Of a stretch of DNA of 64,000 nt, positions 1,819 to 26,583 are shown piece after piece. The notes under the pieces are model-generated. The model had not been told where the DNA came from, made no database searches, and saw only the letters and a list, made by a program, of their open reading frames with translations. A program made the position numbers and the translations under genes. Within the stretch, counting starts at the first letter, position 1; every line of letters starts with the position of its first letter. Origin of the DNA: Oidiodendron maius Zn (Eukaryota > Ascomycota > Leotiomycetes > Myxotrichaceae); assembly GCA_000827325.1 (NCBI GenBank), contig KN832873.1, positions 65,037 through 129,036 of the forward strand. Direction: 5' to 3'.

Positions 1819-3561
1819 TTAGTACTCATCCTCAATACCATCATTATCCTCGAGAGAATCTGCTGCAACTTCCTCATAGTCACGCTCCAGAGCCGCAAGG
1901 TCCTCACGAGCCTCAGAGAATTCGCCTTCTTCCATACCTTCACCAACATACCAATGCACGAAAGCACGTTTAGAGTACATGAGATCAAACTTGTGGGAAA
2001 GAGTGGACCAAGCCTCGGCGATAGCAGTTGTGTTAGAAAGCATGCAGCTTATTGGTGTTAGTACTCGCACAATTTCATAAATAGAGGAGGATTGCACTTA
2101 CAGGGCACGGTTAACTTTAGCCAAATCTCCATCAGGCACCATCTGTGGGGGTTGATAGCAGATACCGATCTTGAAACCAGTCGGGCACCAATCGACAAAC
2201 TGGATGGTGCGCCTAGTCTTGAGAGTAGCAACCGCATCGTGAGCCTCTTTGGTAACAACATCGCCGCGGTATAACAAGCAGGTTGCCATATACTTTCCGT
2301 TCCGGGGGTCGCACTTTACCATCTGACTGTTGGGCTCGAAGCAGGATACGGTCATCTCCTGCACAGAATTGGCCTCATGGGATGCCTTAGCAGTTGAGAT
2401 GACTGGCGCGTATGCAGCAAGAGGGAAGTGGATGCGTGGGTAAGGGACTAGGTTAGTCTGAAATTCATTGAGGTCAACGTTTAGCGAGCCATCAAAGCGG
2501 AGCGATGCAGTGATGGAAGATACCACTGTCCATGTTGTTAACACTCCAGAACTATCTTGTCAATATATTTCAAGGTACCTTGCGCAATCAAACGATTTAA
2601 GTTCTCGACGTTAGGACGCTCTAGGCCCAAGTTTCTTTGACAGATGTCGTACGTAGCCTCGTTGTCGACCATGAAACAACAATCAGAATGTTCAAGGGTT
2701 GTGTGTGTAGCAAGGATAGAATTATATGGCTCAACAACCGCAGTGGCCATCTGTGGCGCTGGGTAGACGCAGAATTCTAACTTCACTTTCTTACCGAACT
2801 CTGCAGACAGACGCTCCATTAGAAGAGCGCCAAAACCAGAACCAGTTCCACCACCAAAGGAGTGGAAGACTAGGAAGCCCTGTAGGCCGGAGCAGTTATC
2901 GGCAACACGTCGGACCTTGTCGAGAACCTGATTGATTAACTCCTTTCCGACTGTATAGTGGCCACGAGCATAGTTGTTTGAGGCATCCTCCTTGCCAGTG
3001 ATCATATATTCAGGATGAAATAGGCTGCGGTAAGTGCCCGTACGGACCTCATCGACGACATTGGGCTCGAGGTCGCAATAGATAGCACGGGGAACATAGT
3101 TGCCTTGGCCTGAGGTACACAGAGGCTTGGTTAACGTGTTGCTCTAAGAAAATATGGCCAGCTTACTCACCTGTCGCAGCGAAGAAAGTGCTGAAGCCAT
3201 TATCAGGCTCAGCGGCCTTGCGCTCGTCGTTCAAGTATCCATCGGGCTAGGAGAATTTGCGTCAGTAAGCCCGCCAAGTAATGTCAACAGCCATCGAAGC
3301 TATACGTAGACATACCTGAATACCGTGCTCGAGACAGTAGAGCTGAGAACCGCATATGTCAGTTGACCGTACAAACAATACAGCCCAATTCAAGTATTTT
3401 AATTATGTCGAAGCTTACCTCCCAGCAAGAGTTGGCAATTTGGCAGCCGGCCTGGCCGACTAGAATTAACAGAGCAGTAAGTACAAGAGCTAAGCAGACA
3501 GTGGCGTGTGAGGTTTGAGGTGTGGCGGGGTCTAACCATTGACACTGATGACTTCCCTCAT
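1819..3561 (-). CDS. tubB: Alpha-tubulin (TubB-like isoform)
   Basis: Seven exons on the minus strand: 3561..3537, 3459..3419, 3342..3316, 3246..3171, 3109..2579, 2525..2102, 2047..1819. The joined length is 1,353 nt, giving 450 aa, the usual alpha-tubulin length. It starts [19 protein letters not shown], carries the GTP-binding tubulin loop GGGTGSGFG, the catalytic-loop region and an acidic C-terminus ending in EDEY with a terminal Tyr. Alpha-tubulin pairs with beta-tubulin to build microtubules of spindle and cytoplasm. The N-terminus resembles the second (B-type) alpha-tubulin of aspergilli more than the A type; the symbol rests on recalled sequence. Unusual points: three very small 5' exons (25, 41, 27 bp), a GTTAGA donor in intron 1 and an AAG acceptor before the last exon. 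All joins restore conserved residues, so the gene looks functional. Confidence 0.93.
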
Positions 3562-11533: not shown

Positions 11534-14500
11534 TTAAAGATCTCTCGGCAGGAGGGGACGTTGACTATTCTCCTCCCGGCTACTGATCCACTCTCGAGAA
11601 CCACTCTGTCGACCGTTAGGTTGCTCAGCAGGTAACTTGAATTTAGGATTATCCAAGGCGTGAGGTTGTTCGGAGCTATTTGCTGACGAGTCTCCGAGGT
11701 GAATACTGCGTATAACAGAGTTAGCAAGTGATGCCACGATATAGCCTCGTAGCTCCCTGTCTTCCCTCGCACCCTCTTTCTCGAGGCGGAAGCGCTCTGC
11801 CCTTGACATACTTGATCGTCGAAGGTTGCGGATTTCATTTATGATGTACATTAACACATCCTCAGGACATCTACTTCGCTCGAGAGCTTGTTCGGACTTC
11901 CGTACATAACGGCGGGTAACGTCTGTTGCGCCTTCAACCGAAAAGGCAATGCAGTATGACATCTTCTTGCCCCATCCGTCACAGTATAACCGTGGGTTGT
12001 CCCAAGCTTTTTCGCAGGGGTCGACGTGGATCCATCGTTCTTGCAATTCGGAGTATACCTCAGTCCAGATATGATCCTCGGCATTCCAAACCCATCGTGC
12101 ACGGCTACCCACAGCACGGCAAAGCATAGTAAAGACGTTGCCCCATTCTCCGCACCGCCCTCTTCTCGTCTGAAGCAATTGCCAAACGTCACCGTATCGA
12201 GGGAAACGCGCATACCCCCCACAGTGCGTTTCATCAGAACATCGGTATCCTTCTACTCGCAAAGCGCCATAGGCAGCCTCTTCGGGCGTTGGAGGTATCA
12301 TACCGTCCGCAATCGTAGGTCCTTGGCAACTTGTGCAGTGTGGATTATTTACCCACAAGAAGAAGGATCGGTGGAACCACGTCAATAACGCGCGGATTAC
12401 ACAGTCTTGATATCCCCATTCAGGTTGTCGCCCATCTCCAATGCTCTTTGCTTGTGCTTCTAATACCTCGCTCTCCTCTTGTGCCTCTTTGTAAATCTGC
12501 TCCAGTGGAATAGCCTGTAATGCTTCGTCCAATAAATACGGATTTTCGTATTTTAGTGGAGTTTGTGATAATGAAATCAATAGGTTCCGAAATTTTTGCG
12601 ACTGCGCGTCAGAAGGTGGTTGAGGAATTTTTGGCAATTTTGCCAGAGAGGAATATGATGGTGGCAGTGCTGAAGGATTACTTGCTGAGGTTAATGGTCG
12701 ATAACCTGATACGTTTGGTGTATGGAGAGAATCAGAGGTTGATGATGCTGGCAAGGGACATACGGAGCCACTTTCCCGGGCCGCAGGATAGTTAACTCTA
12801 CTGCGATAGAATTCATTTAAACGTTTGGTCCGTAATAATATCTCGAACTGGTCTTGTAATATCTTTGCCCAGCTCTCATCGTCTTCTGTCTGCAGCCAGA
12901 ATCCTGGCTCGGGAATAGTTAAGGCGCACTGCTGATTATCTGGAACTAGCTCTCTATCTTTTGTAGACACGATTTCTGAGATTGAATCATCCACAGGGTC
13001 TGGGAATTGTTTGGGAACGTCTTTGGCCAAATTGTGGGTTTGCGTACAGCCAATCATGTTTTGTGATGTTTGGAGGACCTTAGGTGTAGTATCGTGGTAC
13101 CAAGTTGAGGTGGCATCATGTCTCGTGGTCCCATCTTCTGCGGGGATCTCGCATATGGCATCAATTCGCCCCCCAACTGGTGGCAGAGATGGCTTTCTGC
13201 AGTCTTTTTTCTGACCCTCGGCATCCGCCTGTTTGTATAGAAAGAGTTTTGCAGCTTTTCCTCTCAACTTCGACAAAAACGTCCTCTTTGTAATTGGGCG
13301 GGGAAAGATATTCTCTTCATGAGCTTTATTCACTGCAATAACAACCCCACCTCCAGGTGCCAGTCCCGAAAAAATTTCAACTCCAAATTGTCTTTCTGCT
13401 TCCATTGCAGCTTGAAGTAATTCTGCGCCGTTCGCAACGCCGAAGTCATCTGTCTTGGAATAATGAGCAGCAAGACTTGCCATCAAGACTCCTGGCTTTG
13501 GTAAAGATGTCTCCTTAGCTCTAAACGCCTGGCTTATTTGGTACATGGTGTTTTGAAGTGGGACTACATAGGCTTCGTTAAGAGGATTCGATGCAACTAC
13601 ATGGCCATAGACTTCTAGTGTCTTTTGGTTTACAACCAAAGAACCGCAATCGCCATCAATAATAGCTGAATAGATCCTGTCAACAAAAGACTTTCTTCGA
13701 GGATTGTGAAACTCACGCGTGGAGTCGTCCAAAATTACGTTCCATGTTTGACACAGATTTTCGCCTAGCCTTCCTCCAATATAAGAATTGCAATTAAGAA
13801 TCACACCCTTCTGTATTCCGCTAGCCCCAGAAATCATGAATACCGCAATTCCGGTTGTTTCGGGAGCTTTAGCTAGTCTCGTTAAGAACTTAGGGTTTCC
13901 AGGGTCGTCTTCTGAGTAGAACGCATTAGGTCGCTCGAAATATCCATCATCAAACTCAATCAAGGCCCAATCAAGATATGGCATGGAAATATCTGCGGGC
14001 TGTATTGAATCCAACTTGTGGCCATTTAAGGACAGGCTGTATTGTCCAGTTGGCTCCTGGCCCGTATCGATTTCTGCACAAACTTCTCCCGACACTACCG
14101 ATCCGATATTCGAAACTCTCAGATTATTATCCAAGTCTTCATATGCTACATCATCAATCCATGATTCGACAGCTTGATTTTCCTCGGTATCGCTTTCATC
14201 AATAAGGAAATCTGGCTCCTTTATAAACATCGGCTGTTGTTCTTCCTTTTGCTTGTTAAACAAATGGTCCACAGTCAATCCATACAGTTTAGAATCGACG
14301 TCAATAAGAATACCCAAAGTGGAAGTGCGATCCCCATGTCTCACTAACGACCCACAGATGGTGAGTACTGATTGATTCCGAGCAACGACTTGTTCCAATG
14401 CAGATCTTCGTTGCGTGGGTGTTGTTTGTTCCCGCCAAAATACAACTTTAAAAGGTACTATTGCGTTAACAGGTACCTGTAAACGTGGCTTGTTTGGTCC

Positions 14501-15223
14501 AAACGAAAACCTATTTGGTGTATATATGCTCTCTACTTGATATTGTCGCCTGATATGTCTGCTGCTCAACAATGATCGCAGAGGCTTAAAAATAGCCTCC
14601 GTGCAGAAGATAATAATAGACGCAACCGCATTCAAAGGAGTACTTCCACATAAGCGTAGCTCGTAGTTGATCATTGATGTGTGATGTTTCAGAACTTTGT
14701 GGATATCTACAGCTTGTTTGAAAAAATCAACAAGTTGTGGATAGCGCTCGTGGAATTCGGGGGCGATGGGGGCACGTGAATAAATGTTTTGGTCCGTGCC
14801 GGGAACCCTTTTTGGGTCAGCAAAATCCGTTGAGGGCCGCTGCGAGCACTGCTCTGTTGAAGATCTATTGAAAACCTGAGGAGGGTCTAGGGGGACCCGA
14901 AGGCTATATTCGGGTGAGGAGCAAGCATGGTTTTGTCTCGATCCACGATCTTCACTGGGAGTATTTTGGCAGGAGTCTGTCGATACTTTCGGATCTAATG
15001 TGTCTAGTTCGGAGAAGCGTAATCTAGCGACTCTGTCGCTCTCTGAAGCCGATTCTTGCCATTCGTTATTCAAACTTGATATTTGCTGGCGATTGTTTGC
15101 ATGGTCTCTCCTGAAAGAAGACCACCTGGAGGGGTCTCTTTGCGTTATATCTTCCGAGTTATCGGTGCGGATCTGGATTCTGGGTACCGGTGGGTGTCCG
15201 ACAACGACAGTTTGAGAGTTCAT
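11534..15223 (-). CDS. Chymotrypsin-like cysteine protease-PNGase (transglutaminase-like) fusion
   Basis: One uninterrupted 1,229-aa frame from ATG 15223 ([12 protein letters not shown]). The frame extends 12 codons further upstream without an ATG. Residues 1-170 are polar and probably disordered. Residues about 260-560 resemble the trypsin/chymotrypsin-fold domain of fungal multidomain proteins, with His320 (LTVDHLF), Asp418 (DWALIEF) and Cys526 (GDCGS) in the catalytic places, so the nucleophile is Cys, not Ser. After a polar linker, residues about 860-1165 match fungal peptide:N-glycanase PNG1: the zinc-type CTSC and RCSDETHC pairs, then Cys1024 (GRCGEWGN), His1051 ([10 protein letters not shown]) and Asp1068 ([10 protein letters not shown]). 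The 27 and 17 residue spacings equal those recalled for yeast Png1 (C191/H218/D235). PNGases remove N-glycans from misfolded glycoproteins. As I recall, most filamentous-ascomycete PNG1 copies have lost the catalytic Cys and His; this copy has both. It is divergent to the next gene. Confidence 0.85.
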
Positions 15224-15649: not shown

Positions 15650-16842
15650 ATGAGAATCGCTACACCCGCCGAGAAAAGGTCAATCGTGAGAGACTTGTTT
15701 GGTGCCGAGGAAAAATTCCGTTCTTTCAGCACCTACTTCAAGACATACGACTCTCTGACGGCTCCGCAACATACGACGGTTCAGATATATCCCTCTGCTG
15801 TAAATTCTCATGACGATCTTCGAAGACTAGCGCTTGAATTGAGGGCAGATCCACAATATACCCGTGAAGAATTCAGGAACAGAATTTTCCCCCCAGATGT
15901 TAAAGATCCCGAGACTATTATTGATCAGGAGCGTGCGATTAACATCGCTGTGCAGCTCACGTTCATGATTGATTGTTCCGACAAGGATCGCCACTGCGAA
16001 GGTTATGAGGTTGGCGGCTTCAGGCCAGTGAGCTGGGACAACTCGGAGCCTTTTATTGATTTTGTCGGAAAGGTCTTTCCTGCTGATGTCCATGACCATG
16101 GAAAGGTTCGCACAGCAATAAAGGAGAAAAAGTCGTTGAAATGTTGGAAGTTAAAGAAGCGTGCGCACATCAAGTTTCTCCCTACAGATAATTTAGCGGA
16201 GCATCTTCTATATGATCCGCAGGATGACGTAGTTCGTATATTCCATCAAACTGCATTTTTGAAAGCTCATCTTCGCCTTTCCGCAAAAATGCCTCTGAGC
16301 TGCGGACTTAAAGATAGTCTACGAATGTGAGACTCAATTACCTTCAAATAACTTATTTCAGTCCACTGGATCTAACTCGTATTTATAGGGGAACATTGCC
16401 ACCACAACTGCTTTTGGAGACATTACACTCCTTGCAATGCATCCTTTTCCCTCCAGTCGATGAGAAGTCGTCCATGTTCCTAGAGAGCATCGTTAAAGAT
16501 GCGAACCCCGGCTTCGATCCTGATTGTCTCCTTTACGAGGGATACACTAGGCCGGTCCCAGAAAATTTTGAATATCACTATTGGGGTAACCGACTTGTTA
16601 GGCTGCACCAAGTTGTAACAAACCCGAAGCCAAGGCATCGTATTAGCCTCTGGATACAAAGACATGCTTCGGAGAGGAATGCTTTGTTCGTGGCTATACT
16701 TTCGCTTGTTCTTTCTGCATTCTTTGGGTTCCTGAGCGTTGTTTTGGGACTTTTGCAAGTCTGGTTGTCGTATCAGTCTTGGAAACTCCAAAAGCTTCCT
16801 CCACCAGCATCTGATATTTCATCTTTAGCGCCTAGAAGATAG
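15650..16842 (+). CDS. Fungal conserved protein with two C-terminal TM segments
   Basis: Two exons, 15650..16326 and 16389..16842, joined across a 62-bp intron (GTGAGA donor, CTAAC branch, TAG acceptor) to 376 aa. The join yields DSLRMGTLPPQLLLETLHS, matching the pattern of a large uncharacterised ascomycete family with KFRxFSTYFKTY near the start, FHQTAFLKAHLRLS in the middle and two adjacent hydrophobic helices near the end (about 325-362). Relatives are frequent near NLR/HET-type genes in my recollection, but no function is known. The start was chosen at ATG 15650 (MRIATPAEKRSIV), as the longer frame upstream lacks an ATG. It may be co-expressed with the divergent protease-PNGase gene. Confidence 0.8.
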
Positions 16843-17553: not shown

Positions 17554-19267
17554 TTAACTATCATCTTGCCCGATATCGTCTGGTCCCAAGAACTCATAAA
17601 TCTCTGCTCTTAGTACATCTAACTCAGTTTCTCGCCCCCATTCTTGAAGCCAAGACCTTAAGTAGGTCTTGAGGTCCAAGACCAACGCATTATTCTCGCC
17701 ATAATACTTTGCCGCCATTTTAATCGCTCCTCGAAGATTGGACTCGGCGTCTTCTTTGTGATCTAAAAAGTACTGGCATTGTGAAACCAGCTCAAGCATG
17801 TCGATTACGCGAGGTTCTTGTCTCCCAGACGGTCTAAGGTAAATAAGTATACCTTCCAGTACTTCTATTGCCTCGGTATATCGCCGTTGCTTATATAGAG
17901 CATTTCCATAAGAATACTTAATATAAGAAAGACGCTCATCGAATCTGTCAAATTCTTGTTCCCCTTGTACCAAAAGACAATGGAGAAGTTGGGGACCATT
18001 TGACATACACGGGCTGTTAAGGTATCTAGCGTAACACTGAACGACTGTAGGGTGAAATTGCCCCAAAGAGCTAGTAAATTTGTCGGAAATACATCTCCAC
18101 GCTTGTGTAAGGCCAAGCTCGAAATGGGAGTCTCCCAGGTTGCTGATATGGCAAAAGATGTGTCGAAAAGGATTTTCTTCGACAAAAATATTGATTACCA
18201 TCTCGCGCGCTAGGTTTTGGAAGATTCTTGCTACCTCGCTGTACCCGTTAAGCCTCAGAGCTATAAGAAAGTCCAAAAACATTTCCAATGCTCTTGGATG
18301 CTGTTCTCGAAGCAGGGGATTCACAACGTCAGAAGCCTTGGAGAAATACCGACGGCCTTCGGCGAATGACTTTGATTGCATCAGCCGTATCCCCGTATAG
18401 CTTAAATGTCGAAAGATATTCGGTGATTGGGTCCCTTTTGCACTAGCGGAATCGAGATAACCGTTATCTTTCTCCATAAAAAGCCCACCATCAAACGCGC
18501 CCTCAAAATAGGACGTAATGCTAGCGAAAAGCTTCTCATATACAAGTAGACTTTGAGGAGGCAACGGAGAATCTGGTACTTCAAAGGATTGGATCTCGGG
18601 ATTGGAAAAAAGGATTTGTCGAGTTTGGTCCACGCTAAGATACGTATTTACCACGTTGCCTTGCGTAGCATCCAGAGACATATATGAGACGCTACCCATT
18701 TCTGCACCCAAAGGTTCGTAAAAGTCGACTCCCAAACCTCCAGGTCCCAGGGTGGTTGCATATCCCGGCTTCGGTGTCAGTGGTGGTGTCCAACACTCAA
18801 TCGCTGTAGACATGGAAGCTTCAGCAGTCTGTGGCACGACCTCAGGATCCAAAATGCCTTTCCTCTTAAAGTATCGCAGAACATCGTCGATCGTCATTGT
18901 CTTTCCTCTAACGCGAAATACGGAGTCTTTCCCAATCGCAGCCCTCTGCACTTTCATGTTCAACATTGCTCTCGCCTCGGTTTCTTTGGTCTTCTTGTCA
19001 AGATTCCATTTCTTGATTCTGTCTTTGTACATCTTGGCCCTAAGTATTATCAGCGAAGGTCCATGAATGGCAAAATTATTTCATCACCTACGTTGCGCGG
19101 AGACCATAGTCTCGTTCCATAACGGCCATTACTTCTTTGAGTGTCTTTTTTTCGTCGGCGTAGAGACGTTTGATCATCGGACGGCAACGATTCCACTCTG
19201 CACGAGTGGGCTGTGCGTAAGATAAAGTCATGGCCATCTCTTCAGGCCCCGAAAACAATCGCTCCAT
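17554..19267 (-). CDS. Clr5-domain TPR-like protein
   Basis: Two exons, 19267..19092 and 19039..17554 (52-bp intron, GTAGGT donor, TAG acceptor), encoding 553 aa. Residues about 18-80 form a Clr5 domain (EWNRCRPMIKRLY, KTLKEVMAVMERDYGLRAT, KMYKDRIKKWNLDKK), which the splice rebuilds exactly. Clr5 domains are short, probably DNA-binding modules first named from fission yeast Clr5. The rest (about 220-540) is helical with repeat-like AxxY/ALxxYxxG patterns (YSYGNALYKQRRYTEAIEV), suggesting tetratricopeptide-like repeats. Proteins of this architecture are numerous and variable in filamentous fungi; the target is unknown. The frame is intact. Confidence 0.82.
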
Positions 19268-19925
19268 TTAGAGTTAAAGATAAGCCGTGATACTCAATCA
19301 CCGCGTTGCGGCTTAGCAGTGGGAAAGTTGTGATAAAAGAATTGGAACAAGTTGGAATGATATCTGCGGTAGCTATAACGTGCCTACAAAATCTCCAGGG
19401 TAGCACAAGGGTTCTCATCATGATAGAGAGCATGCCTATATAGACGAAGACTGTCGGAGTGAGGCTGGAGCAGAGCATGAAACTGTGACAGATGCAGGTG
19501 GATGCGTATTAATTGGGTGGTTATTCGATCAAAAGTACTATGCAGACGCAACCCATGCGCCGGAGCGAGAAAGTAAGGCGGATGACTCTATTTTGCCAGC
19601 CAACCACGTTTGATTACTCGGTGACTGGGTAGAATATACTTAGCAAATAGCACGTGAAAGGTACAATCAAGTACTAGGCTCAGTACTTCCATTCTCTGTA
19701 CTGCGGCTGCCATCGGGAATTTGTCTGGGTGCTCTCCAACATGACAGGTCCCCTTCAATATCTTTTGCGATGACACTTACTGCAATATCATACTTTATAC
19801 ACTATACGGACAGTCCTCCAATGGTATTCTATGACACCTTTACGTAAGGCGCACGGGCCACTTCCCTCCAACTCACGTCCCAAGCCAAGAGATGAGATCG
19901 CTGCCTGGTATAACCAAGACTATCC
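19268..19925. other. Intergenic
   Basis: Upstream region shared by the divergent Clr5 gene (left) and HET gene (right). Only short unrecognised frames; nothing annotated. Confidence 0.5.
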
Positions 19926-22305
19926 ATGATAAAAGCGCTATGGTGCTCACATTGTTGTGGGAATCCTTGTAGCTTAAAGCACATCAATATGAATAGCGAT
20001 TACAATTCCTCCCATCCTGGAGTCGGAGCCGAAGGTCATGAACAGATGCTCGGCTCTGAGAGGAAAGTCTTCAAAGAATGGTTTCAAGAATATATGGCCA
20101 TAGAAGGGGATGATCTCTTTAGGGATTCTAATATTATTCAGGTGGTAAATTCTGATAAGCTTGATGTGGACTTCGTTGAACAACGAATACGGAAATTAGC
20201 ACCGAAAGCTCCTGTCACGAATGGATTCTGCGCCAGTTGTCGAGATCTCTTCGACAACTGGCCTACACTAGGTGGCTCATTGACTAGAGAACATGACTCA
20301 GAGCCAGATCTAGACGAATATGGATGGGAGTGTACTACTGCGCGGCTATGTAGCACTTTTGAACTGGAAGGGTCGGCAGGCTTTAGATGCAGATTCTGCA
20401 CATTCTTGCTGCAAAGCCTGAAAGACAGCGAATTACTTGACATATTTCGCAAGATTGAAGTACGCCTATACCATCTCGACGAGAATGCAATGCTAGCCTT
20501 GTCTATACAGAATTGGGGTACATCTATGCAACTCTTGTGGCTGAACTTGCCTGGTAAGGTTTGCACTCACTGCAATAAAGGCATAGCCGTGGATACATCA
20601 GTAGAGTCATGTTTCCTTCCAGCATCAGGTGCGTCATGCTTTACTGGTATGATAGTTGAATCTTGCTAACGCCTTGAAGCCGATTGTTACAATGACCCAC
20701 TTGACGTATTCAATATCGCGAGAAGCTGGTTGCTAAATTGCTCTGAAAGTCATGAACTTTGTAGAAGCAATGAGAACAGCATACTACCCACTAGACTGAT
20801 CTTAATCTCTAGTGAATCGCCACGGTTGCTACTAACCTCAGAGTGTACCAGGAGGCCCCAATATGCAACTCTATCACATAGCTGGGGTTCTTGTGATATG
20901 ATCAAGCTCACTTCAGAAAACCTCGACTCTTTTATTAAGATGATACCTGTCAAGAGGCTCCCGAACACTTTCAAAGATGCTATCGAGATCGCACAGCAAT
21001 TAGGTTTAGATTACTTATGGATTGACTCGCTATGTATTATTCAAGATAGTGAAGATGATTGGCAAAAAGAATCGGCCCTAATGAGTTCAGTGTACAGTGG
21101 TTCGACCATTACTATAGCTGCGTCTTCTGCTCGTGATAGCAATCATGGCTGTTTTCTCAAACCATCCAACTTTAGCGGCGGACTTCGAGCTCGAATCACT
21201 ATTGATGGGCAACAAAGAGGGCAAGATTTTCGGAGTAAGGAAGTCTACGATCTTTCAACCTTCAATACCCATTTAGGAACCAGAGCCTGGGCGCTCCAAG
21301 AGAAATTGCTACCCCCTCGAACGATTCATTTTGGCGATCGAGGTGCCTTCTAGGAATGTAGGGAGATAATTGCGTCTGAATACTTGCCAGATGGGTTTCC
21401 AGGGATGCTGGTTTCCCCACTCGTTCGTCGAAAGGGGAAATTTGAACGGCTCTGGCCTCAAATCATACAGCTTTATTCCGCAGCGAATCTAACTTTTGGG
21501 AAGGATAAACTAGTAGCACTTTCCGGAATCGCAAGGATTGCGTATAATGAAACCGGCGATCAGTATCTTGCGGGATTGTGGCGGGGTCAAATTATAGAGC
21601 AATTATGCTGGCGCCGTTTGGGATCTAAATCCAGAGTGAAGCGACCAGCTTGGCGGGCACCGACTTGGTCTTGGGCCTCTGTGGATGGAAGGGTATTCTG
21701 GCTTCCACTGCAAGACGGGTTTTTGGAAACTAAGTACGTGCAAGTCTTAGATGCAAACACGGAAAAATACGGTTATGATCCGTTTGGGCAAGTCGCTAAT
21801 GGAGTAATTCGTCTTGCTTGCTCTACTATGGTAGGCGGCCTACTTAAACAAATCCAGTGAATCGGAGGCCAAAGAATGCTCCATTATTGTGTCACACGCC
21901 AGCAACGAGGAGCAAGAACTTTCTATCCAGATAGACTGTTTGGACGATGGCTACCAAGAAGACAATAGACAAATTTATCTCTTGCCTCTCCTTGGTGGCA
22001 GAACTGGCCGCGCGAGTACGAAAGGCTCGGCAGACAAAGACTTGTTAGACGAGTTAATGATTCAGGGCATTGTGCTTCGGGCATCGTCATTCATAAAAGG
22101 CGATTTCTCTAGGATCGGATCTTTTAACTTCTATAAAAATAGAGTGTTCTTTCGCTCTCATAGTGAAGACGGCGAGAACGAGGCTTACGAGACCTTTCTA
22201 CAAATATTACAAGAACATGGGACATCGAGCGCTGAGGCAGCGTGTGCTGAGGTTATATCGAATCCCAAATATCCCGATAAACGATATGTCATCACTCTTA
22301 CATGA
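19926..22305 (+). pseudogene. HET (heterokaryon incompatibility) protein, inactivated by a TAG and a frameshift
   Basis: ATG 19926 (alternative 19989). Exon 1 ends at 20628. The intron 20629-20679 has a GTGCGT donor, GCTAAC branch and AAG acceptor. Exon 2 carries a full HET domain: YATLSHSWG, LPNTFKDAIEIAQQLGLDYL, WIDSLCIIQDSEDDWQKESA, SSVYSGSTITIAASSA and TRAWALQEKLLPPRTIHF. The frame then meets TAG at 21351-21353 where the family has Trp (GDRGAF-W-ECRE), a single G-to-A change. Similarity resumes at once and continues through LFGKDKL-like and APTWSWASVDGRV motifs, then shifts frame near 21830-21860 before ending with ECAEVIS-like codons around 22250. HET domains trigger cell death on non-self recognition. 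This allele is broken unless the stop is an assembly error. Confidence 0.82.
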
Positions 22306-23262: not shown

Positions 23263-23577
23263 CACATAGGTAAATAATACAAACAAGTCAGCAGTTTAGA
23301 TCGGCATTTCATATAATCGTAGTTCTAGAAGCTTCTATATAATAGTATATTGCACAGTATTGCAGATATCCATGCGTAACTTTCTTGATCCCGCATAGCC
23401 ACGTATTTCAAACCTTCAAAAATGGTTTGCTCTGCTATACTGGGTCGCTTCTGCCTGGCGCGCCGCGTGACACTACTCTATTTCGACCACCTGCTGTTAG
23501 CCATGCACTTAACAACTTAGAGTCAGGTTTCTTGCAGCTCCTTCACTAAGACACAGTACCCAATAACGGTTTTTCAT

Positions 23578-26500
23578 ATGGCCGAAGCTCTAGCTACTGT
23601 TGGTGTTGTCTCTAGCATCGTCCAACTCGTTGACTTCAGCGCTAAAGTTGTACATCGTCTCGATGAGTTCTACTCTAAAGCAGGATCAATCCCGAAGGCT
23701 TTTCGACACGTCAAGACTGAGCTCCCTCTATTAAACATCACGCTTCAACGAATTAAAGAAGCTAATGCTGCGAGCTCCATGGCAGACGTAATAAAAAAGA
23801 CCCTCTCCCCTGTCATAGCAGGATGCCAAGAGCAAATCACTGAGCTGGACAATATCCTTATCAGGACACTGCCAGAAATCGATGACAGCTGGCGGAAAAG
23901 GGGCAAGAAGGCAATATTAAGCCTACGCCAAGACACCAAAGTTGAGAGCGTTACGAAGATCTTGCGAAATTATACTAGGATTTTAACGTTCTACTACGCT
24001 GCCACATCGTCAACCTTGCAGCCTCTTATAGGCAAGTGCCTTGTTAACGATTTACACTAACTTTAATCTAAGTATTCCACTGTAGATACAAAAGTCTCCA
24101 AGATCAACCGGTGGCTGTCTGCGCCAGACCCGTCTACGAACTACCAAATAGCGCTCAAGCAACGGCAGGCCGATACTGGACTTTGGCTCCTCGAGAGCGA
24201 ACAATACGCTCAATGGAAGACAAAAATTGCGTCACCCCTCTGCCTGTATGGAATCCCAGGGTGCGGAAAGACTGTCCTAAGCTCTAATGTCTTGCAAAAT
24301 GTGCTCCAACACTGCCACGATGATCCTGGAAAGGTGACCGCGTATTTCTTCTTCGATTTTACTGATGTGCAGAAACAAGACCCGGAGTTAATGCTGCGCT
24401 CGTTGCTCTGCCAGCTCTTACAGCAGTCCATTCAGATCTCGCCAAGTCTTGATGCCCTGTTTTCGTCCTGTGAAAATAGGCAGCGACAGCCATCAGTACA
24501 TACGCTATTAGAAGTGATGCAACATATAATGCAGGAGTTCCCGCAGGTCTATGTTGTTCTTGATGCTCTAGATGAATGCACCCGACGTACAGAGTTACTG
24601 GACATCCTTGAAACAATGGTGCAGTGGCAGCTTCAGAGCTTGCACCTTCTAGTAACGAGCCGAAGAGAACGGGATATCGAGAACACCTTAGAGGGTATTG
24701 CAGATCTACAGAACAGAATCTATATTCAAAGCGAACTAGTGGACAAAGATATACAGCGATACGTTCGACAAAGATTACTAGACGACCAAAGCTTGCACAA
24801 ATGGGCAAAAGACATTGGCATTAGGCAAGAGATTGAGGCCGCCTTAATGAAGGGAGCTCGTGGAATGTATCTGTCTTCCTTTAGCTCTCAGGGAATTTCT
24901 GTTGACGACTATCATAGGTTCCGATGGGCTGTATGTCAGCTAGACACGTTAGGAAAGTGTCGAAATCGAACAATGTTGCGCAAATCTCTCGCTGCATTGC
25001 CACCAACATTGGACGAAACATATGACCGTATTCTTCTTGCCATAAGCAAAGAGGATTCCAAGTACGCGGTCCGCATCCTACGGTGGCTGACATTCTCGGC
25101 TCGGCCACTTTTAGTAGAAGAAGTTGCCGAAGTCGTCGCTATTGACACAGAGCGTGACCCTGTATTCGAGCGAGATGAGGTTCTGGAAGATCCGCTAGAA
25201 GCGTTAAACATCTGCTCTAGTCTTATTACTATAATTACAGACTACGAAGGTGATTACGACGATGACTACGAAGGTGGTTATGATGATGACTATGAAGATA
25301 ATCACGATGATGACCACGAAGATAATCACGATGATGACCACGAAGATAATCACGATAACGACCACGAAGATAGACGGCCAAGGCCAACGAGACAAGTTAT
25401 CGCGTTGGCGCATTACTCTGTCAAGGAGTACCTCCTCTCGGACAGAATCCAGAGAGGCCAAGCAGCGCAGTACGGAATGGAAAATGCAACGTGCCATGAT
25501 GCTATAGCAAAAGGCTGCATTGGATACCTTCTTCAATTCCAACAACTGGAGGGGCTCTCTGAAGCAACCTTCAAGGGATTCAAGCTCGCACGATACTCAG
25601 CGGAGTTCTGGATCGGCCACGCCAGAGAGTCAGCTGAGCGAATGGAAGAATTGAGCCTGATTGCAATGAATCTATTCTCAACAGAAAGTGCTGCCTACCT
25701 TAACTGGATGCGGCTATATAATCCAGATAGGGCTTGGAAGTGTTTTCAACTAATACCAGAACTTATACCGGCTCCGCTATACACTGCAGCGCGCTCAGGC
25801 CTGAGGCAGGTAGTGCAGCTACTGCTCGATCGCGGCGCCGACGTCCACGCAAATCGTGGTAACCTCGGATACGGATATGCGCTGGAGGCAGCTTCGCGTA
25901 AAGGTCATAAAGAGGTCGTGCAGCTACTACTTGATCGCGGCGCCGACATTAACGCACGAAGTGGTAGTGGCTTTAGCAATGCACTACAAGCAGCTTCGTT
26001 TGGAGGTCATAAAGAGGTTGCTCAACTACTACTCGATCGCGGTGCCGACGTTAACGTGCGAAGTAGTGGCTTCTGTGGCAGTGCAGTAGAGGCGGCTTCG
26101 CTTGCGGGTCATAAAGGGATCGTGCAGCTGCTATTTGATTGCGGCGCCGACATTAACGCACCAAGTTGTAGTGGGTATGGCAATGCACTACAGGCAGCTT
26201 CGTTTAGAGGTCATAAAGAGGTCGTGCAGCTACTACTCGATCGCGGTGCCAACGTCAACGTAAATGGTGGTATCCATGGCAATGCACTATCGGCGGCTTC
26301 GTATGCAGGTCATAAAGAGGTGGTGCAGCTGCTACTTGATCGCGGCGCCGACATCAACATCAATGCGCCAACTAGTTGCTTCTATAACGATGCACTATGG
26401 GCAGCTTCAGTTAAAGGTCATAAAGATGTCGTGCAGCTGCTACTCGATCGCGACGCCGTCGTCAACGGACAAAGTAGTGACTATAGTAATGCACTACAAG

Positions 26501-26583
26501 CGGCTTCAGATGCAGATAATAAAGAGGTCGTGCAGCTGCTAGTGAAGGCAGGTGCTAATGTTATAGTTCCAGAAATGCAATAA
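23578..26583 (+). CDS. NLR-type protein: SesA-like N-domain, NACHT, ankyrin repeats
   Basis: Three exons, 23578..24031, 24086..24866 and 24918..26583, giving 966 aa. The first intron uses a GC-AG pair (GCAAGT donor); the second is 51 bp, in frame, and its removal restores RGMFRWAVCQLDTLGKC. Residues 1-150 form the SesA-like helical N-domain (ALATVGVVSSIVQLVDF). The NACHT NTPase has Walker A GIPGCGKT (about 207-214) and Walker B VVLDALDE (about 308-315), and LPPTLDETYDRIL follows. An acidic D/H/E tandem linker sits near residue 515-565. Eight ankyrin repeats (about 699-966) have near-identical cores, HKEVVQLLLDRGAD. Fungal NLRs sense non-self through the repeats and trigger cell-death responses through the N-domain. 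The gene looks intact and is bracketed by inverted family-R repeats. Confidence 0.88.
25236..25376 (+). repeat. Coding tandem repeat, D/E/H/N-rich (24-bp unit)
   Basis: Within the NLR coding region. An imperfect DYEGDYDDDYEGG segment grades into three nearly identical 24-bp units encoding NHDDDHED. It lies between the NACHT-associated helical region and the conserved HYSVKEYLLS motif, so it is an insertion in a normally compact stretch. It also creates a hydrophobic-looking open frame on the opposite strand, an artefact. Confidence 0.8.

Follow-up and report, generated by a model that had tools for sequence, protein, structure and literature searches.

The locus

We describe here a gene of Oidiodendron maius Zn in which a putative chymotrypsin-fold protease is fused to a near full-length copy of PNG1, the cytosolic PNGase, and which is paired with a divergent gene for a predicted membrane-anchored protein. 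Both lie in the window, that is, the whole 64,000-nucleotide stretch of contig KN832873.1 analysed (assembly GCA_000827325.1, positions 65,037 to 129,036). All family counts and conservation reported below refer to this single strain, whose searched genome comprises 45.9 Mb in 58 contigs. A previous sequence-only reading had described a 1,229-residue frame, and an uninterrupted open reading frame (ORF) of 1229 codons indeed occupies 11534-15223, although on the minus strand, which that reading left unstated, and with a probable in-frame intron that would shorten the protein to 1212 residues. The catalytic residues it named (His320, Asp418, Cys526, Cys1024, His1051 and Asp1068, in ORF numbering) are all in place, with the 27/17 spacing. 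The features of the pair are the following:

11534..15223, minus strand: protease-PNG1 fusion gene, ATG at 15223 and stop at 11534; 1229 codons unspliced, 1212 if spliced as predicted
13490..14752, minus strand: family-specific N-terminal region and chymotrypsin-fold domain, the stretch modelled, with the 17 intron codons kept
14264..14266, minus strand: His320 codon; all 8 aligned family members have His in this column
13970..13972, minus strand: Asp418 codon, column invariant in the same 8 members
13666..13716, minus strand: predicted in-frame 51-nt phase-1 intron, with an intron at the same place in some paralogs
13646..13648, minus strand: codon of the Cys nucleophile in GDCGS (526 unspliced, 509 spliced); Cys in 5/8 and Ser in 3/8 aligned members
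12881..13447, minus strand: linker from the protease to the PNG1 copy
11537..12880, minus strand: near full-length PNG1 copy, from comparison with the standalone PNG1 on contig C2
12152..12154, minus strand: PNGase catalytic Cys codon (1024 unspliced, 1007 spliced), by alignment
12071..12073, minus strand: PNGase catalytic His codon (1051 unspliced, 1034 spliced), by alignment
12020..12022, minus strand: PNGase catalytic Asp codon (1068 unspliced, 1051 spliced), by alignment
15650..16326, plus strand: partner gene exon 1, from the first in-frame ATG, head-to-head with the fusion
16327-16388, plus strand: partner intron, inferred (GTGAGA..ATAG)
16389..16842, plus strand: partner gene exon 2, after the inferred intron
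16690..16746, plus strand: predicted C-terminal membrane anchor of the partner, 19 residues with a mean hydropathy of 2.61

That two unrelated genes simply lie end to end was ruled out: no stop separates the two halves, and chance is an unlikely reason for the open linker, which only 2 of 100,000 single-base shuffles (180 linker codons) kept open; the other five frames of this stretch contain 3 to 10 stops each. Searches with the whole fusion protein gave no database match for the linker. The fusion is presumably transcribed as one mRNA, and separate protease and PNG1 transcripts from the one open frame are possible.

Directly ahead of the GDCGS motif, the window gene has extra residues relative to its paralog on C8. 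The sequence here (13716..13666, GTGAGT...TTGAC...TTCAG, phase 1) is the sole candidate that a pattern scan of the whole fusion ORF for in-frame introns returned, and since its 51 nt are a multiple of three, the frame reads through it. In the DNA of the paralogs C16 and C5b a clear GT-AG intron, also of phase 1, occupies the same site; in C18 an intron fits there only if a GC-AG donor is allowed, a stretch there in C5a resembles an intron but its frame is ambiguous, and C8 and C4b have no insert and a continuous frame. Given the candidate and the paralog introns at its site, the fusion protein probably has 1212 residues, with Cys509 as the nucleophile.

A multicopy two-gene module

The fusion gene belongs to a two-gene module that is present in several copies. 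The protease family occupies 11 places in the genome, some of them relics, and at 8 of these it lies head-to-head, at less than 1 kb, with a paralog of the partner gene 15650-16842; in the window, 426 bp separate the two divergent start codons. Distances within the two families mirror each other (Mantel r 0.85), and between any two protease domains of the 8 pairs identity is no higher than 38%. The partner is predicted to be a largely helical, tail-anchored protein. When 17 members of its family were searched with Pfam, 15 families were matched (best E 0.0014), 14 of them in one member and 1 in two, and the three with a printed cut-off fall below it. The partner profile had no useful match among PDB sequences (best E 0.77), and a query with the C16 partner found no relatives in viral_contigs or genome_contigs. 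Neither sequence nor fold matched a gasdermin, an absence that leaves a gasdermin possible.

Partner-family places with no detected protease neighbour are C18:618755-619752, C8:1642073-1642901, C10:422350-422763 and C33:35641-36103, the C10 place containing several stops. As for the protease family, the C1 relative (L029 3300-5704) has no partner and is followed by reading frames that we take to be reverse-transcriptase-like. The C27 and C13 places look like relics or fragments; the C13 copy (L046 1450-1864), again with no partner, has Gly at the nucleophile position.

Captured host genes at the C-terminus

The C-terminal parts of seven of the eight paired loci (window, C8, C5a, C5b, C16, C18 and C4b) were compared with the whole genome; C17, which was left out, carries PigL_N by Pfam. 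Six of the seven appear to be copies, each of another standalone gene in this genome, with 55-96% amino acid identity. At five loci (window, C8, C5a, C5b and C16) the nucleophile motif and the captured part share a single open frame on the same strand.

(i) In the window, the captured part is PNG1 (70% at the amino acid level). (ii) In C8 (fusion ORF L025 2162-4933, compared with the C2 source L049), it is 96% identical to part of a C2 ORF with a GMC-oxidoreductase domain. The DNA identity, 90.7% over 1607 bp, runs through an apparent intron and beyond the stop codon into the 3' flank, so this part was copied as DNA, and recently. We call it hydrolase-like from a weak PHA-synthase match (E 0.012). 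(iii) C5a matches a C9 gene (77% in amino acids; 74% in DNA over 2149 bp), which we presumed to be VPS9 but leave unnamed, Pfam having given no support. (iv) C16 matches a DUF7896 gene on C4 (73% in amino acids; 82% in DNA over 786 bp). (v) C5b matches genes on C1 and C20 (55% and 52% in amino acids) and has downstream a relative of the second exon of the C1 gene (29.6% over 223 columns); we assume that the part shared with C1 is CorA-like. (vi) The captured part of C18, kinase-like below the Pfam cut-off and 59% identical in amino acids to a C11 gene, is encoded one ORF downstream of the motif and ankyrins, and would be joined to the protease only by splicing.

On codons in stretches more than 35% identical, the ratio of nonsynonymous to synonymous substitution rates (dN/dS) is 0.20 for C8, 0.14 for C5a and 0.31 for C16, which at the level of sequence shows purifying selection on these three captured parts, averaged over both copies; dS is saturated for the C5b and PNG1 captures.

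The PNG1 half

By its sequence, its triad and its zinc-type cysteines, the C-terminal half is a member of the cytosolic PNGase family (PNG1/NGLY1), as had been proposed. A search of PDB matched mouse PNGase (2f4m, E 7.8e-61, residues 887-1147) and yeast Png1 (E 3.3e-56, residues 890-1160), with which the triad aligns. Cys963, 966, 995 and 1001 (ORF numbers), which we take to be zinc binders, match cysteines in both. This is also the only part of the fusion that Pfam recognised (Transglut_core, PF01841, E 2.9e-16; Rad4, E 5.3e-14), and NCBIfam gave only a weak Rad4 match to it (29.5 bits against a cut-off of 400).

The genome has one other PNG1-like place, C2:3093522-3094876, where the separate enzyme whose existence the sequence-only reading had wanted checked is encoded in two ORFs (2487-3053 and 3047-3907 of C2:3091000-3097000). 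Reconstructed, it has 455 residues and can be aligned with the fusion over almost its whole length, with 303 of 435 aligned residues identical; the proportions of nonsynonymous and synonymous differences are 0.21 and 0.84, the latter saturated. At third codon positions the GC content is 0.70 for the standalone gene and 0.28 to 0.57 for blocks of the fused copy. In contrast to PNG1/NGLY1 as known, the copy in the window sits behind a protease, is the second in its genome and is missing the short intron of the standalone gene, for which reason a retrocopy or an intron loss would suit it.

Of 98 positions that are alike in mouse and yeast and aligned in both fungal copies, each copy keeps 76, so that on sequence the fused PNG1 equals the standalone enzyme in its degree of preservation. 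The latter also keeps Cys, His and Asp. The loss of Cys and His from the PNG1 of most filamentous fungi, mentioned in the sequence-only reading, is indeed stated in PMC9102325, but it does not extend to the standalone enzyme of this species. Since that enzyme has the triad too, the intact triad of the fusion is nothing special here, and the idea that it marks the fusion as a special enzyme was rejected.

The protease domain

The N-terminal part adopts a chymotrypsin-like fold in the predicted structure, in line with its earlier description as protease-like. The nearest solved folds to the model are rice NAL1, S. griseus protease B and DegS, in which H, D and GD(C/S)G come in the same sequence as here. 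By this modelled fold and by its His-Asp-Ser/Cys order we assign it to the chymotrypsin-fold (PA clan) proteases, and it may be active. It departs from other proteases of this fold in three respects: (i) Pfam trypsin models matched none of the 8 family members (E up to 10, HMMER filters on); (ii) Cys takes the place of Ser in 5 of the 8; and (iii) the stretch from His to Asp is long, variable and often acidic. A genome search with Trypsin_2 (PF13365) listed three places (C5:2309082-2309498, C1:5320503-5320988 and C4:400433-400873), all outside the family. Pfam searches of the fusion protein and the 8 members found no S8 or CHAT protease, the protease profile had no useful match among PDB sequences (best E 0.28), and the C8 protease found no relatives in viral_contigs.

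Two further affiliations were rejected. A known anti-phage relative did not emerge, PADLOC having no match for the five proteins tested and NCBIfam giving only Rad4; and membership of the NLRs is contradicted by a fusion with no NB-ARC or NACHT, in which Pfam saw Transglut_core and Rad4 alone. No trypsin-like NLR domain turned up in the accessible portions of PMC4986451 and PMC9815663. The sequence-only reading knew of no described protein pairing a protease with a PNGase; none appeared among the matches listed in the open-access literature, partly from searches aimed elsewhere, which lends that statement slight support.

A candidate receptor with captured bait

The arrangement of the family looks like an immune or cell-death receptor kit. 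Fungi are known to have two-gene units whose sensor carries a protease that cleaves a gasdermin; about 80% of the gasdermin genes in fungi are clustered with protease genes, mostly S8 or CHAT, and many of the sensors carry ANK, TPR, WD40 or kinase-like parts (PMC12881547, PMC10197012 and PMC10989679). Going by PMC12881547 and PMC10197012, the HET-Q1/HET-Q2 (Q2L) clusters resemble the present module in that (i) a protease-bearing multidomain sensor is adjacent to a membrane-acting protein, and (ii) sensors have ankyrin or kinase-like parts and an immune-type setting. They differ in that (iii) their proteases are mostly S8 or CHAT, whereas a chymotrypsin fold is modelled here; (iv) the partner here has no detected gasdermin relation and bears a C-terminal anchor; and (v) several members here have captured host genes.

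This last feature recalls the integrated decoys of plants. The integrated domains of plant NLRs can be copies of host targets. There too, according to PMC9528084 and PMC4759852, a receptor-like gene carries an extra domain of unrelated origin; here an extra host-gene copy is fused to the candidate receptor gene in 6 of the 7 parts tested (five in one frame, C18 in the next ORF). In contrast to the plant receptors, the present proteins have a protease core, have no NB-ARC or NACHT, and come from a fungus.

Because the plan resembles the fungal protease/gasdermin pairs and the captures recall integrated decoys, we propose, with a probability of roughly 45%, that the fusion is a receptor built on a protease, in which a captured host protein is the sensor or bait and the tail-anchored membrane partner is what the receptor acts on. 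The anatomy of the module is well supported; its mechanism we infer to be as follows. Gene 1 would provide a cytosolic chymotrypsin-fold protease with a Cys or Ser nucleophile; in several members its 3' end has given way to a copy of a gene found elsewhere in the genome, PNG1 in this case. The divergent gene 2 would provide the largely helical protein with its C-terminal anchor. The captured protein may be the sensing part, either a bait for whatever binds or modifies the genuine protein, or a means of reporting the state that protein is in. Its engagement would release the protease, which would cut the membrane partner, and the cleaved partner would act at the membrane, probably in cell death or growth arrest. 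Since the fusion belongs to a paired family with various captured genes, PNGase is more likely a module that was swapped in than the part on which the system is built. A bolder version, that these genes form a class of fungal immune receptors in which protease paralogs recombine their 3' ends with 3' parts of host genes, and in which engagement of the bait (here PNG1) has the co-inherited tail-anchored protein cut and the cell killed or arrested, strikes us as rather unlikely.

Several observations weigh against the proposed receptor. The whole PNGase active site is retained, which a mere bait does not need, and the protease model has a mean predicted local distance difference test score (pLDDT) of 60. 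Three of the 11 protease places (C1, C27 and C13) and 4 of the 12 partner places are unpaired. Stops in the C5a protease part (L007 3764-4565) and in the C17 partner (C17:984831-985849) mean that at most 6 of the 8 pairs look intact; these two are possibly decaying members. The partner matches no known executioner in sequence or fold; C4b has its zinc-finger part in a neighbouring ORF (best genome match 34%) and is not a capture; and the dN/dS values average captured and source copies.

Rather than sensing, the fusion could strike directly, as a weapon of defence in which protease and active PNGase work jointly, for instance by removing glycans and cleaving glycoproteins, and which the partner anchors or delivers. 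The intact PNGase triad and four zinc-type cysteines, a constraint equal to that of the standalone enzyme, and the H, D and C/S columns kept across the protease family agree with such an effector, but the C-terminal parts of other members are unrelated (DUF7896, ankyrin, PigL_N, hydrolase-like and others), so PNGase activity is not what the pair needs in general, and we consider it improbable. To a similar degree we doubt that the captured protein serves substrate choice, guiding the protease to whatever the original protein interacts with, for PNG1 Rad23 and the proteasome. A near full-length, constrained PNG1 copy fits this, and different captured proteins would give each locus different targets, but the pairing and mirrored distances with one family of membrane proteins are left unexplained. 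Less probable still are chance joinings of downstream copies in duplication-prone DNA, with no role as one protein: relics exist (C13, C27), the C8 capture was made from DNA and is recent, and 3 of the 8 pairs lie near contig ends (C16 and C17 within 7 kb; the window begins 65 kb from its contig end, its pair 76 kb from the start of C4), but one open frame on one strand runs from motif into captured part in the 5 captures other than C18, and the three captures whose dS is not saturated have dN/dS values of 0.14-0.31.

A 2025 review of fungal cell death regards the stimuli behind the activation of its diverse putative sensors as a major open question (PMC12881547). Should the captured proteins be baits, candidate targets could be read off from them directly: PNG1, the hydrolase-like protein and others. 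If true, our proposal would mean that integrated decoys, which have been described for plant NLRs, also occur in fungi and on a protease core, and the gasdermin pairs would be joined by another kind of pair between a protease and a membrane protein.

Genomic surroundings

The immune-type locus suggested from the sequence holds up, with TPR, HET and SesA-NACHT-ankyrin ORFs all within 12 kb of the pair:

17557..19080, minus strand: TPR-containing ORF
20670..21347, plus strand: HET (heterokaryon incompatibility) domain ORF
23521..26577, plus strand: SesA ORF, then NPHP3_N/NACHT and ankyrin ORF

The HET domain falls in the middle one of three ORFs at 19914-21857 that share one plus-strand frame and are split by single stops, perhaps a broken gene or a gene with introns.
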